From assembly GCF_000496835.1 (NCBI RefSeq), contig NZ_KI543237.1, forward strand, positions 1 through 64,000: a stretch of 64,000 nucleotides of DNA. The letters run 5' to 3'. The position numbers were made by a program, and so were the translations under genes. Each line of letters starts with the position of its first letter. Position 1 is the stretch's first letter. Source of the DNA: Thalassobacillus devorans MSP14 (GTDB lineage: Bacteria > Bacillota > Bacilli > Bacillales > Halobacillaceae). Below are positions 3,612 through 55,242 of the stretch, in pieces. The notes under the pieces were generated by a model, which was not told the DNA's origin, did no database searches, and worked only from the letters and a program-made list of their open reading frames with translations.

Positions 3612-3885
3612 TTAAATATAAAAAAGCCTCTCATCCCATAACTGGGACGAGAAGCTTGTATTCCCGCGGTACCACCCAAATTGACGTATGACACGTCCTC
3701 TTCAGCATCGATAACAGTGATGAGCCGGCAAAAGCTACTTGCATTCACTTTTGCAACATCCAAGGTGAGTTCATCAGTTACAAGGTCAGCTTACACCTGC
3801 CGCTGACTCTCTGAATTTCTTGCAGGCTGATTACTATTCCTCTTCCAAGTCGTTTATCAATATATCTATCCGTATCTTAATGAAA
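3612..3885 (-). ncRNA. T-box leader (tRNA-Leu sensing) of leuS
   Basis: On the minus strand there is the near-invariant T-box sequence (complement of 3661-3677, containing GGTGGTACCGCG). It is preceded by a stem-I region with an AGAG-type distal element, and a candidate specifier CTC (Leu) at 3767-3769 followed by A. Downstream is a terminator hairpin with a T-run (3613-3655). Uncharged tRNA-Leu would stabilise the antiterminator and let leuS be read. T-box and terminator are seen directly; the exact specifier is inferred. Confidence 0.93.
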
Positions 3886-14769: not shown

Positions 14770-14936
14770 AGAAAAACCCTTCCTATTGATGAGGAAAGGG
14801 GGTTGCTTCCTTTCGCTCTTATCGTTCAAGGATCATTCCTTGCTACAGGCTAGCACCTTTTCACATTCGTGATGGTTGCTGAGGTTTCATCGGGCCTGTC
14901 CCCTCCGCCGACTCTGGATAAGAGAGTATCCGTTCG
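14770..14936 (-). ncRNA. SAM-I (S-box) riboswitch of metK
   Basis: On the minus strand the S-box landmarks appear in order: P1 strand CTCTTATC, AGAGTCGGCGGAGGGA, GGCCCGATGAAACC, CAGCAACC, and AAGGTGCTA. A terminator follows (14775-14806) whose stem CCCTTTCCT/AGGAAGGG precedes TTTTTC. SAM binding should favour termination and turn metK off. Confidence 0.96.
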
Positions 14937-15361: not shown

Positions 15362-15402
15362 TCCATATTCCCCCTGGTTTTTTCTTACTCATTAATTGCA
15401 GC

Positions 15403-15613
15403 TAAAGCTCCCAATTGCTGAAGACTCAGTTTCTAGAGAAATTGTTTCCGTTACGGATATGAGCGTTTGGAGGTCCGGGAAATCACTCGCTTTCCATGGG
15501 GGTACGGTGAGCTTCCTCGGGCTAAAGCCCTGTCGGATCTCACCATGTACTCTACTCCCATAGGAGTCTCGCAATTTCCCGGACCTACTTGCGTATTTAA
15601 GAATAACGGAAAC
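15403..15613 (+). repeat. Structured palindromic repeat R1, copy A
   Basis: Nested inverted repeat: outer arms GTTTCCGTTA (15444-15453) and TAACGGAAAC (15604-15613), inner arms GGTCCGGGAAAT (15472-15483) and ATTTCCCGGACC (15574-15585), then GGTGAG/CTCACC and a tip GGGCTAAAGCCC. A 28-nt flank at its left is shared exactly with copy B. Short open frames in it are by-products. Divergent gap between the DCC gene and pckA; the rest of this ~680-bp gap (15614-15878) shows nothing recognisable. Confidence 0.85.
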
Positions 15614-15878
15614 TTTCGCAGGCAGAGTCATTCAACCATAGTAACAGCTACAAAGAGGCCTAGTTTCCTGTATCATTGGGTCTTGGAATGTGGAAGATAT
15701 CTTCTTACAACGTACGGTTCGTTCATCAAAAAACGGATAGGGTGGCAGGGATAAGAAATCAACAATAACGTTTAACACAAGTCTATTTTATAAAAAGGGG
15801 TATCTTTAACCAAAAGTGATCAAAGGTTCCTTACACCCTACTTTCCCCTCTACAATATGTATGAACAATGTTACATTA

Positions 15879-29640: not shown

Positions 29641-29850
29641 ATAAACCTCCCAAGACTAAATGGGTACCCTGGAGGGGCCGGAATGAAACCAGGACACATT
29701 TATTCAGTCTTATCCTTTTGATGTTATTTCCCTATCTTCATACCCGCCTATTAAAATTTTAATTCCTGATGCCATCTTCCTCTTATTCCATAAGCTTCCT
29801 CTGCTATAAAAATAAATCTCTGTTAAATCTGATTGTTGATTTTACAGAAA

Positions 29851-30062
29851 AGCTCCCAATTGCTGAAGACTCAGTTTCGAGATGGTTGGGTCCGTTACCA
29901 TGAGCGGAATGGGGAATGGTTCGGGAAACAACTCGCTTTCCTGCGGGGGACCTGGCAAGCTTCCTCGGGCTAAAGCCCTGTGGGATCTCGCCTAGCCCCT
30001 TCTCCCGCGGGAGTCTCGCCGTTTCCCTTCCCATCCAGCCAGTTTTGTATTAAACGGACCCT
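29851..30062 (+). repeat. Structured palindromic repeat R1, copy B
   Basis: Same left flank as copy A (AGCTCCCAATTGCTGAAGAC onwards). Outer arms GGGTCCGTT (29888-29896) and AACGGACCC (30053-30061), inner GGGAAAC/GTTTCCC, and tip GGGCTAAAGCCC. The outer arms differ from copy A yet still pair, i.e. compensatory change. Bases 29641-29850 and 30063-30195 hold nothing else I recognise. Confidence 0.85.
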
Positions 30063-30195
30063 TCAAAAAGAGAAAGAATGTAGCTGAAACTTTCAACTTG
30101 AGGCATTTTACAAAGGATGTAAAGCACTAAAGTCTTCAATCATAGGGTAGTTTTCTTAGGCTGATTTCGAGAACTTTGGATAGGCTACACTTGGT

Positions 30196-31381
30196 TGGAC
30201 AGTTTCGTTAAGGTCAGTTACACTTTACTAAATATTTCAGTCAAGGAGACTAAACATGACCCCAAGGAACCGTCGTAACTTCACGGATGAATTTAAGAAG
30301 CAAGTTGTGCAGTTAAATGAAAATGGGAAACCTAGAAAAGAAATTTTAAAGGAATATGAATTATCATCCTCTGCCTTTGATCGTTGGGTTAGTCAGTACA
30401 GAAATGCGGGTTCCTTCAAGGAAGAAGACAACCGAACACCTGAACAAAATGAAAATATCAGGCTGCAAAAAGAAAACCAGCGTCTTTCGATGGAAGTTGA
30501 TATTTTAAAGCAAGCGGCGCTGATCATGGGACGAAAGTAGATGTGATCCGGAACAACCGTCACAAATACTCGGTATCAGCAATGTGTGCCGTCCTGCAAC
30601 TTCCTAAAAGTACGTACTACTATGAATCACAAGAAGCCGACACCTCTGAAGAAGAGGAACTAACCAGCCTGATTGTCGATATTTTTCATAAAAGCCGGCA
30701 AAATTATGGCACGCGAAAAATAAAGCACGAACTCCATAAAAAGGGGTATCAGGTCTCCCGTCGAAGGATCGGTCGGATCATGAGAGAGCAGGGGCTCGTC
30801 TCCAAATATACGGTGGCTCAGTTTAAGCCAATGAAAAGCACGTGCAATGAATCGGAAGAGGGAAATACGTTGAATCGTCAATTCGCTCAGGATAAGGCTC
30901 GTAAGGTTGTCGTTAGTGATTTAACCTATGTGCGCGTGCGTTCCAAATGGCATTATATCTGTGCGATTCTGGATCTGTATAATCGTGAGATTATCGGCTA
31001 CAGCTCAGGCCCTCAAAAAGATGCAGCCCTGGTCCAGAAAGCTTTCGCTTCTGTTGGTGGAAACCTTGAGGATTTAGAACTTTTTCATACCGATCGCGGG
31101 AGTGAATTTAAAAACCAAGCTATTGAAGAGTTATTAGAAACCTTTAACATTGATCGCTCTTTGAGTATGAAAGGCTGCCCCTATGATAATGCGGTGGCTG
31201 AAGCTACGTATAAGGTGATTAAGACAGAATTTGTTTATGGAGAAACATTTGAAAGCCAGGAACAACTGGACCTGGCCTTATTTGATTATGTTCACTGGTA
31301 TAATCATATCCGAATTCATGGTACCCTGGGCTACCTTAGCCCGATTGAGTTCAAGAAGAGACACCTTAATAAAATTGTCTA
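30196..31381 (+). mobile_element. IS3-family insertion sequence (IS150-like), about 1.19 kb
   Basis: Left end TGGACAGTTTCGTTAAGG (30196-30213) and right end, read on the minus strand, TAGACAATTTTATTAAGG (31364-31381): 14 of 18 positions match as terminal inverted repeats. Contains orfA and orfB in -1 relation. No convincing target-site duplication (GGT left, GTT right), suggesting an old insertion or flank decay. Both genes look intact. Confidence 0.9.
30256..30540 (+). CDS. IS3-family transposase OrfA
   Basis: 94 aa. N-terminal HTH_Tnp_1 domain (RRNFTDEFKKQVVQL ... ILKEYELSSSAFDRWVSQY, residues 5-52) and a C-terminal leucine-zipper-like helix (NENIRLQKENQRLSMEVDIL). The codons ATT TTA AAG at 30502-30510 contain the slippery heptamer T TTA AAG (30504-30510). 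A -1 slip there enters an open frame that joins orfB, giving the full transposase. AAGGAG upstream of the ATG. Confidence 0.92.
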   Translation: MTPRNRRNFTDEFKKQVVQLNENGKPRKEILKEYELSSSAFDRWVSQYRNAGSFKEEDNRTPEQNENIRLQKENQRLSMEVDILKQAALIMGRK

Positions 31382-31382
31382 G
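30543..31382 (+). CDS. IS3-family transposase OrfB (DDE integrase core)
   Basis: 279 aa counted from GTG; more probably made as an OrfAB fusion by -1 frameshifting. HTH_21 region (SLIVDIFHKSRQNYGTRKIK), then the rve catalytic core with D in VVSDLTYVR, D in LFHTDRGSEF and E in NAVAEATYKVIKTE, a complete DDE triad. Its stop codon coincides with the right end of the element. Nothing suggests inactivation. Confidence 0.93.
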   Translation: MIRNNRHKYSVSAMCAVLQLPKSTYYYESQEADTSEEEELTSLIVDIFHKSRQNYGTRKIKHELHKKGYQVSRRRIGRIMREQGLVSKYTVAQFKPMKSTCNESEEGNTLNRQFAQDKARKVVVSDLTYVRVRSKWHYICAILDLYNREIIGYSSGPQKDAALVQKAFASVGGNLEDLELFHTDRGSEFKNQAIEELLETFNIDRSLSMKGCPYDNAVAEATYKVIKTEFVYGETFESQEQLDLALFDYVHWYNHIRIHGTLGYLSPIEFKKRHLNKIV

Positions 31383-31410
31383 TTTCGTGTTGACAATCCA
31401 CTTCCCATGA

Positions 31411-31576
31411 CAAGGGGCGTAGGGAAACGGTGAGACTCCTGTGGGAGCTGAGTGATAGATGAGGCCCCGCAAGGCGAAGCCTGAGGAGACTCAGCACACG
31501 CCCACGGAAAGCGAATCGTTTCCTGAAGCCCCTCAACTCCAACAATATCTCGAAATCAAGTCTTCCACAATTCGGC
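31411..31576 (-). repeat. Structured palindromic repeat R1, copy E
   Basis: Opposite orientation to copy B across the IS. Contains CGGTGAGACTCCTGTGGGAG, GAGGCCCCGC, GGAGACTCAG and CGGAAAGCGAATCGTTTCC, then the shared outer flank TCTCGAAATCAAGTCTTCCA. Outer stem AGGGGC/GCCCCT. More diverged than A, B and D. Fills most of the gap between the IS and the menC terminator. Confidence 0.75.
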
Positions 31577-31632
31577 CATATTGTTAAATAAGGCTCTTAT
31601 GGAATTATCCACAACAATATGAAACAGAGCCA

Positions 31633-54361: not shown

Positions 54362-54550
54362 CCTTGACCATTCCTCCTTGTCAATCGCTATACGTTCAGT
54401 GATTTATATATTAAACAGTGTCTCCATATTAACACTTTTTTGTATTATATAATAAAAACACTGAGTATGTTATTATCCTTTCTAAAAATGGACGTTTCTA
54501 AATGGTTCAGTTAATCGTTGTTTATATTTCATAAATGTCTATTCCATAAA

Positions 54551-54910
54551 AGAGCCGAAAAGTCGAAGACTTGATTTCGAGATAAAAGGGATTCTTTACC
54601 ATAAAAGAGTCAGGGCTGGTTGGGAAACTACTCGCTTTCCAGCTTCATCGCCTAGACACTCGCGACATAAGCAGTCCATCAACGGGAAGAAAGAACCCTT
54701 CCCTTTTGCTGTTCTGCTTATGCGTGTCGTGTCTCCCAAGGCGATTATGCATTCATTTCTTTCCTGCGGGGACCTGGCGAGCTTCCTCGGGCTATCGCCC
54801 TGTGGGATCTCGCCTCGATCCTTCTCCCGCGGGAGTCTCGCAGTTTCCCCACCAACCCATCCGAAGGATGGAGAAACGAACCCTTCTTTTAGCTGAAGAT
54901 GCTTTCATTT
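54551..54910 (+). repeat. Structured palindromic repeat R1, copy C (interrupted)
   Basis: Left flank AGTCGAAGACTTGATTTCGA resembles copies A and B. Core pieces ACTCGCTTTCC (54630-54640) and TTTCCTGCGGGGACCTGGCG (54760-54779) are adjacent in copies A and B but split here by a 119-base insert. Tip is GGGCTATCGCCC instead of GGGCTAAAGCCC. Outer arms AAGGGATTC/GAACCCTT. The gap 54362-54550 holds nothing recognisable. Confidence 0.8.
54641..54764. mobile_element. MITE-like palindromic insertion inside R1 copy C
   Basis: TTTCC at 54636-54640 is repeated at 54760-54764, and the sequence between them is absent from copies A and B. The insert folds back on itself: TCGCCT, GACA and ATAAGCAG (54648-54674) pair with CTGCTTAT, TGTC and AGGCGA (54713-54744), with a GGGAAG/CTTCCC hairpin at the tip. 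No coding capacity, so a transposase elsewhere would have to move it. Confidence 0.5.
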
Positions 54911-55020
54911 TAACTGAATAATATCGAATTCTGATGCACGTTAGAAGCACGCTTTAATCAGAAGCTCTCCTAGTGTTTGAAGGTCTGCCTACTGATGTTT
55001 CAGTTTTCCTAATCAACGCA

Positions 55021-55205
55021 AGGAGGTCCGGGAAATTGCGAGACTCCAATGGGAAAATAGTACATGGTGAGATCCCGCAGGGCTTTAGCCCGAGGAAGCT
55101 CACCTTACGCCCATGGAAAGCGAGTGATTACCCGGACCTCCAAACGCTCCCTACCTTAACGGAAACAGTTTCTCTCGAAACTAAGTCTTCAACAATAACG
55201 AGCTT
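55021..55205 (-). repeat. Structured palindromic repeat R1, copy D
   Basis: Inverted relative to copy C. GGAGGTCCGGG (55023-55033) pairs with CCCGGACCTCC (55131-55141); GGTGAG/CTCACC and GGGCTTTAGCCC tip; flank TCTCGAAACTAAGTCTTCAA is the complement of the A/B left flank. Bases 54911-55020 between C and D have no other feature. Confidence 0.85.
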
Positions 55206-55242
55206 AACTGAACGATTAAAACAATATTTAACAGAGACAAAA

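Follow-up and report, generated by a model that had tools for sequence, protein, structure and literature searches.

The hairpin repeats described here are clearly part of an old transposon family of Bacillales that is MITE-like, carries GGCTCTGTTAAA at its ends and duplicates 8 bp of its target. The unexpected result is that their hairpin cores have become decoupled from the sites in which they lie. The repeats came from a window of 64,000 nucleotides (positions 1 to 64,000 of contig NZ_KI543237.1) of Thalassobacillus devorans MSP14 and were followed through its draft genome (3.94 Mb, 9 contigs), a sister species of the same genus and more distant relatives. Within the genome, cores are decoupled from the outer ends that surround them. 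In the sister species, most of the tested sites are occupied, and copies elsewhere match the core at a site better than its ortholog does. Our leading explanation, held with roughly even confidence, is that the cores of this old family are replaced in place by ectopic recombination between copies.

Five repeats in the window, A to E, had been put forward in a preliminary description as copies of one unit. They sit at the coordinates given there, the quoted arms are present, and the arms vary from copy to copy with pairing retained. As units, however, five copies was wrong, and the repeats are instead halves of composite elements. Moreover, A, C and E match 57, 77 and 61 places, respectively, in the genome, and the five are thus merely the window's share. 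Hairpin A (15403 to 15613, forward strand) is the left nested hairpin of a composite at about 15371 to 15781 (forward strand), the outer ends of which are decayed. Only the left 18-bp core motif is present (15420 to 15437, forward strand, found by motif search), and A passes into the right outer end at about 15751 to 15781, as judged by eye; thus, its right hairpin has been lost. Folded as DNA, A is more stable than dinucleotide shuffles (z = -5.2, with 0 of 200 shuffles equally good).

The other four repeats form two composites. Hairpins B (29851 to 30062, forward strand, from sequence and DNA fold) and E (31401 to 31576, reverse strand, inverted relative to B, from repeat match, motif and DNA fold) belong to one composite at 29816 to 31631 (forward strand), with a motif pair at 29865 and 31548 and outer ends placed by eye. 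Its halves are separated by an IS3-type insertion at 30177 to 31400 (forward strand), with ends placed by eye and with transposase open reading frames (ORFs) at 30256 to 30540 and 30543 to 31382 that match HTH_Tnp_1 and rve/HTH_21. By eye, CTT flanks the insertion on both sides (30174 to 30176 and 31401 to 31403), and the middle of the composite can be seen without interruption at C2:209154. Folded alone as DNA, B (z = -1.2, 23 of 200 shuffles equally good) and E (z = -1.7, 8 of 200) are unexceptional. Hairpins C (54551 to 54910, forward strand, with the 77 genome matches) and D (54997 to 55205, reverse strand, inverted relative to C, from sequence and its match to A) are the two halves of a composite at 54504 to 55238 (reverse strand, including outer ends placed by eye), with a motif pair at 54565 and 55173. 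As a single stretch of DNA (54551 to 55205), C and D fold with a z of -11.3, and 0 of 20 dinucleotide shuffles are equally good. The C-D composite has no recognizable target duplication. C also contains an additional hairpin module (54644 to 54758, forward strand; about 115 nt) that is missing from some copies, which match C only at 15 to 93 and 209 to 351.

The same architecture recurs across the genome. Two inverted nested hairpins, some halves of which carry the further module of about 115 nt, are bounded by an 18-bp inverted motif, GAAGACTCAGTTTCGAGA, and lie within decayed outer ends of about 50 bp. Loci were fetched around the matches to A, C and E. In 72 of the 82 that lie outside the window, one end carries the motif in the forward orientation and the opposite end carries it inverted; together with the two pairs inside, 74 paired composites were found in the genome. 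The interrupted B-E pair measures 1,701 bp, and the remaining 73 measure 327 to 759 bp. Beyond the motif, reading by eye gave an indistinct consensus for the outer ends, GGCTCTGTTAAATCTCAGTGTTGATTTTACAG for one side and GGCTCTGTTAAACGTTGTTGATTTTTCATAAGAGG for the other. Ends within 3 mismatches of GGCTCTGTTAAA make up 28 of the 146 outer ends, compared to 3 of 288 control windows.

The nature of the family is best seen in relatives. The earlier suggestion that Bacillaceae commonly carry such sequences was correct, and matches were found across related genomes. Of 61 genomes scanned with a stricter outer-end pattern, 10 gave a total of 29 loci, with target duplications of 8 of 8 bases at 9 loci and 7 of 8 at 6. 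In three genomes of other families (G058, G045 and G040), 30 of 56 places were fetched, and the 24 that were distinct had 8-of-8 duplications at 11 and 7-of-8 at 4; where several partner ends fitted, the best-matching one was chosen for scoring duplications. Eleven of these 15 duplication-bearing elements are 183 to 188 bp long. The form of about 185 bp in other Bacillales families is a single hairpin with the same outer ends and perfect 8-bp target duplications, and we conclude from these that the repeats are a MITE-like transposon family. The same hairpin lies inside three of four folded elements with duplicated-target outer ends (L300, L292 and L293). As expected of MITEs, terminal inverted repeats are present, with GGCTCTGTTAAA at either end in relatives and decayed in T. 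devorans; target sites are duplicated in relatives; and among the ORFs listed for G058, G045 and G040, none of at least 120 amino acids lies wholly within a paired element. We infer that the ancestral form was the single hairpin and that it was doubled in the Thalassobacillus composites. Other arrangements also occur. In Alkalihalophilus pseudofirmus OF4, two hairpins of like orientation are spaced by about 216 bp, and another locus (L232) has three at 217-bp spacing. In one genome (G027), three elements of about 1.0 to 1.4 kb (L295, L303 and L309) share the outer ends and contain several nested hairpins, and L295 has an 8-of-8 target duplication. Mini elements that carry these outer ends and measure 92 and 161 bp (L393/L396 in G058 and one near 229300 on contig C19 of the sister species) appear to be internal deletions.

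No assigned mover was known to the preliminary description, and none was found here, yet transposon nature is clear from the outer ends with their 8-bp duplications. Among the genomes searched, no transposase with the ends of the repeat family was found, and no transposase was recognized by eye in any of the six frames of the 1.4-kb L295. Several candidates were considered. IS6 was set aside, as the sole match in T. devorans was the IS3-type element of the window, at 23.9 bits against a cutoff of 27, and the other four genomes of the genus contain no IS6 transposase. Elements of the ISL3 family, possible but doubtful movers, make 8-bp target duplications, and the ends of an ISL3 in a relative (L283) begin GGCTCT and GGTTCT. 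Those ends share just their first bases with the repeat ends and differ in the remainder, and an ISL3 gene was found in 12 of 37 genomes searched and in none of the five of the genus. IS1182 was considered as a parent from a Peribacillus plasmid (L342), where the same hairpin directly precedes a transposase annotated as IS1182. We note that, by eye, a leader similar to the one upstream of that transposase is present on two other plasmids (L341 and L343), the three being plasmids of Bacillus badius and Peribacillus. Phage records contained no match to the repeats.

A RAYT/REP origin was set aside, as no repeat match lies near the sole Y1 gene of T. devorans and another genome (G004) has many composite matches and no Y1 gene. 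That sole gene (C2:544425 to 544754, L122) encodes a Y1 transposase-like protein of 195 amino acids, which exceeds the usual IS200 length, and long Y1 proteins, often single, occur in many relatives. The repeats resemble REP and REPIN sequences, which are moved by RAYTs, in being intergenic palindromes, but they are much larger, with hairpins of over 100 nt, and are flanked by 8-bp duplications. REPINs are reported to show compensatory changes on the two sides of the hairpin, and a 1988 review proposing gene conversion of REPs appears by title among the references of the same paper (PMC3116915). With bacterial MITEs such as bcr1, RUP, BOX and the Correia elements, which we compared through their published descriptions (PMC3733652 and PMC3049150), the repeats share inverted repeats at the termini, duplicated target sites, a high copy number and strong base pairing. 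The repeats here differ in that their cores are decoupled from ends and sites and in that they are double nested hairpins of 0.3 to 0.76 kb. In the portions of the open-access literature consulted, we recognized no description of this repeat family or of its core replacement.

How the cores relate to their outer ends was compared pairwise within the genome. The comparisons kept 71 or 67 of the 74 composites, excluding those with N, short flanks or lengths outside the limits. Among the 2,485 pairs of 71 composites, the 81 with core identities of at least 0.9 have outer-end identities of 0.678/0.753, and the 822 with cores below 0.6 have outer ends of 0.636/0.679; identity in the far flank is 0.565. 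Even in the 34 pairs with cores of at least 0.95, the outer ends average 0.68/0.76 and do not exceed 0.87. In the pair C1:888453 and C4:171954, a core of 495 bp is 0.998 identical, and the outer ends are 0.73/0.73. Recent jumping of whole elements would have left the ends as alike as the cores. Exchange can also involve one half of a composite, as 103 of 2,211 pairs match above 0.9 in the left half and below 0.7 in the right, and 5 pairs show the reverse. Finally, decoupling was seen in another genus (G013), where end identities are 0.78/0.87 for cores of 0.995 and 0.64/0.76 for cores of 0.949. That genome is in three contigs and has no N near its 28 composites, 27 of which are distinct, as L444 and L445 are one locus and produce the row of 1.0 identity.

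The sister species indicates what has happened at individual sites. The 74 composites were compared with 1.08 Mb of its 4.3-Mb genome, in which both flanks were mapped for 18 composites and one flank for 12, and which includes a syntenic stretch of 176 kb aligned at 88%. Of the 18 sites with both flanks, 15 are occupied in the sister species, one of them by a mini form that has undergone deletion and shows the duplication AAATGAAA, and at 3 no element was recognized. The empty site corresponding to C2:784733 reads AAACCTTT/AAAACTTT, a match of 7 of 8 by eye. At the 15 occupied sites, the ortholog is the best T. devorans match at just one; at 14, a paralog is closer to the T. devorans core than the ortholog is, and at 9 the ortholog scores less than half of the best match. 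The core scored as inverted at 5 of the 15, in some cases on weak scores of 47 to 98 bits. Two sites outside the 18 (294886 and 311066) likewise have an ortholog that is not the best match. At C2:254897, the outer ends seem to be inverted together with the core, which fits inversion of the whole element.

Whether the outer ends stay in place while the core changes is a separate matter, and here the evidence is mixed. A fixed 50-nt comparison at 8 sites was negative, with orthologous outer ends at 0.671 and nonorthologous ends at 0.674 (best of two ends), and 2 of 16 orthologous ends exceeded the 95th percentile. A flank-anchored extension, run after that negative result, came to 30 nt or less from the motif, or entered the core, at 26 of 30 ends, although the control is weak, as about half of unanchored paralog pairs also reach into the core. 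At 16 of 30 ends, the inward alignment stopped in the interval from 10 nt outside the motif to 27 nt inside it. At C2:294886, 224309, 189601 and 209154, private variants of the outer ends are common to both species, and at these single sites the outer ends have been retained. That outer ends were retained while the core was replaced, with junctions near the 18-bp motif, is for sites generally likely, not proven.

The mechanism that we favor is ectopic recombination, or gene conversion, by which one copy would donate its core to another. Long hairpins formed at replication might be cut by an SbcCD-type nuclease, which is the weakest step of the proposal, and the break might then be repaired from another copy via the shared end motif. 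SbcD is encoded in the genome, and E. coli SbcCD is reported to remove such structures (PMC3733652). Cutting and repair would also yield the inversions, half-swaps and internal deletions that were observed. Counting against ectopic recombination, the homology available outside the core is short. A recombinase or transposase acting at the 18-bp motif might instead transfer the core whole, placing it between the ends of older copies. The clustering of breaks near the motif at those 16 of 30 ends would suit such a cassette, as would the sharp loss of identity between near-identical cores beyond the motif, at a distance of about 15 nt on the left side and about 25 nt on the right. Short homology at the motif, however, accounts equally well for sharp junctions, no enzyme was found, and the half-swaps and partial matches within cores would require additional recombination; we consider cassette exchange unlikely.

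Other explanations do without exchange. The same spots might have been hit by independent insertions, or elements might have inserted twice, one within the other, with different lineages losing different copies. Nested and large forms do exist (1.4 kb in L295), and the 8-bp duplications are AT-rich, such that some insertion spots could be favored. The sharing of 15 of 18 sites is nonetheless far above the expectation for about 75 insertions placed at random per 4 Mb, private outer-end variants are shared at the four sites named above, and near-identical cores lie in unlike outer ends within a single genome. We regard independent or nested insertion as quite improbable. Still more improbable is misassembly, in which near-identical cores were merged or misplaced in draft genomes. 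The assemblies compared are indeed in 9 and 40 contigs, and the T. devorans stretches contain 7 runs of N, but N lies within 100 bp of just 3 of the 74 composites. Moreover, merging does not create cores that differ in length and type between syntenic flanks, and decoupling was seen again in the three-contig genome.

Why the stems covary could also be explained by RNA. The preliminary description had proposed either selection for structure or gene conversion rather than mere decay, and it had suggested covariation and positional bias as checks. The stems do covary. Among 85 hairpins, changes on both sides occur at 29 of 39 pairs, and in a tree-based null of 400 simulations, 4 pairs were significant (E < 0.05), with 3 of them in the structure and the fourth, 29-79, adjoining pair 30-78; the null assumes a tree, an assumption that recombination violates. 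The structure came from averaged pairing probabilities, adopted after a first run on an RNAalifold structure in which 1 of 4 significant pairs was in the structure, and three false hairpins (L166, L257 and L266), near-duplicates and, among the sequences added, those outside 105 to 125 nt were dropped from the alignment. Summed from the covariation table, both-sided changes fill 497 cells and one-sided standard changes fill 43. A positional bias is also present, with 17 of 66 composites lying between convergent ORFs compared to 33 of 323 adjacent ORF pairs, a comparison based on crude ORF calls and a baseline that takes in operon neighbors.

A structured RNA or RNA-level regulatory element maintained by selection on its stems would account for the covariation, for the letters within the hairpin that are invariant at some pairs in 85 of 85 sequences, and for the excess between convergent ORFs. 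At 17 variable well-paired positions, however, G-T/T-G mismatches number 23, A-C/C-A mismatches number 42, and C-T/T-C mismatches number 72, and the slight excess of A-C over G-T (P = 0.025) would lean, if anything, to the other strand. In tandem gene contexts, 21 composites have the same orientation and 21 the opposite. With G-T not above A-C and orientation unbiased, nothing favors a selected RNA. The Rfam scan over the repeats reached no family at its cutoff, and the cores differ at orthologous sites. The same scans placed a T-box leader (3640 to 3856) and a SAM riboswitch (14816 to 14924), both on the reverse strand of the window, and a ylbH leader outside the composite at another locus (L091, 1320 to 1486), all above the Rfam cutoffs. 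We conclude that the pairing pattern suits palindromes maintained at the DNA level and not an RNA selected on one strand, and we consider a selected RNA very improbable. Thus, gene conversion and the rejection of mere decay survive from the earlier proposal, and selection on RNA does not. The conversion had been placed between arms; the exchange seen here is among copies at different sites, and arm-to-arm copying is merely consistent with the data.

If cores are indeed replaced by ectopic recombination, palindromic MITEs would evolve long after jumping stops, through core replacement in place, and hairpin repeats could remain uniform and palindromic without a selected RNA. Perhaps the family persists through overwriting instead of jumping, with a dedicated process at the 18-bp ends that copies the core into older copies throughout the chromosome, the frames of which stay fixed. 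We think this doubtful, but, if true, the family would spread in a homing-like way with no further insertion required. Culturable Bacillales carry many of these repeats, which makes it possible to measure directly how often cores are exchanged and whether exchange depends on RecA or SbcCD. Ultimately, if core replacement is correct, covariation of stems in bacterial repeats would be unsafe as proof of functional RNA.
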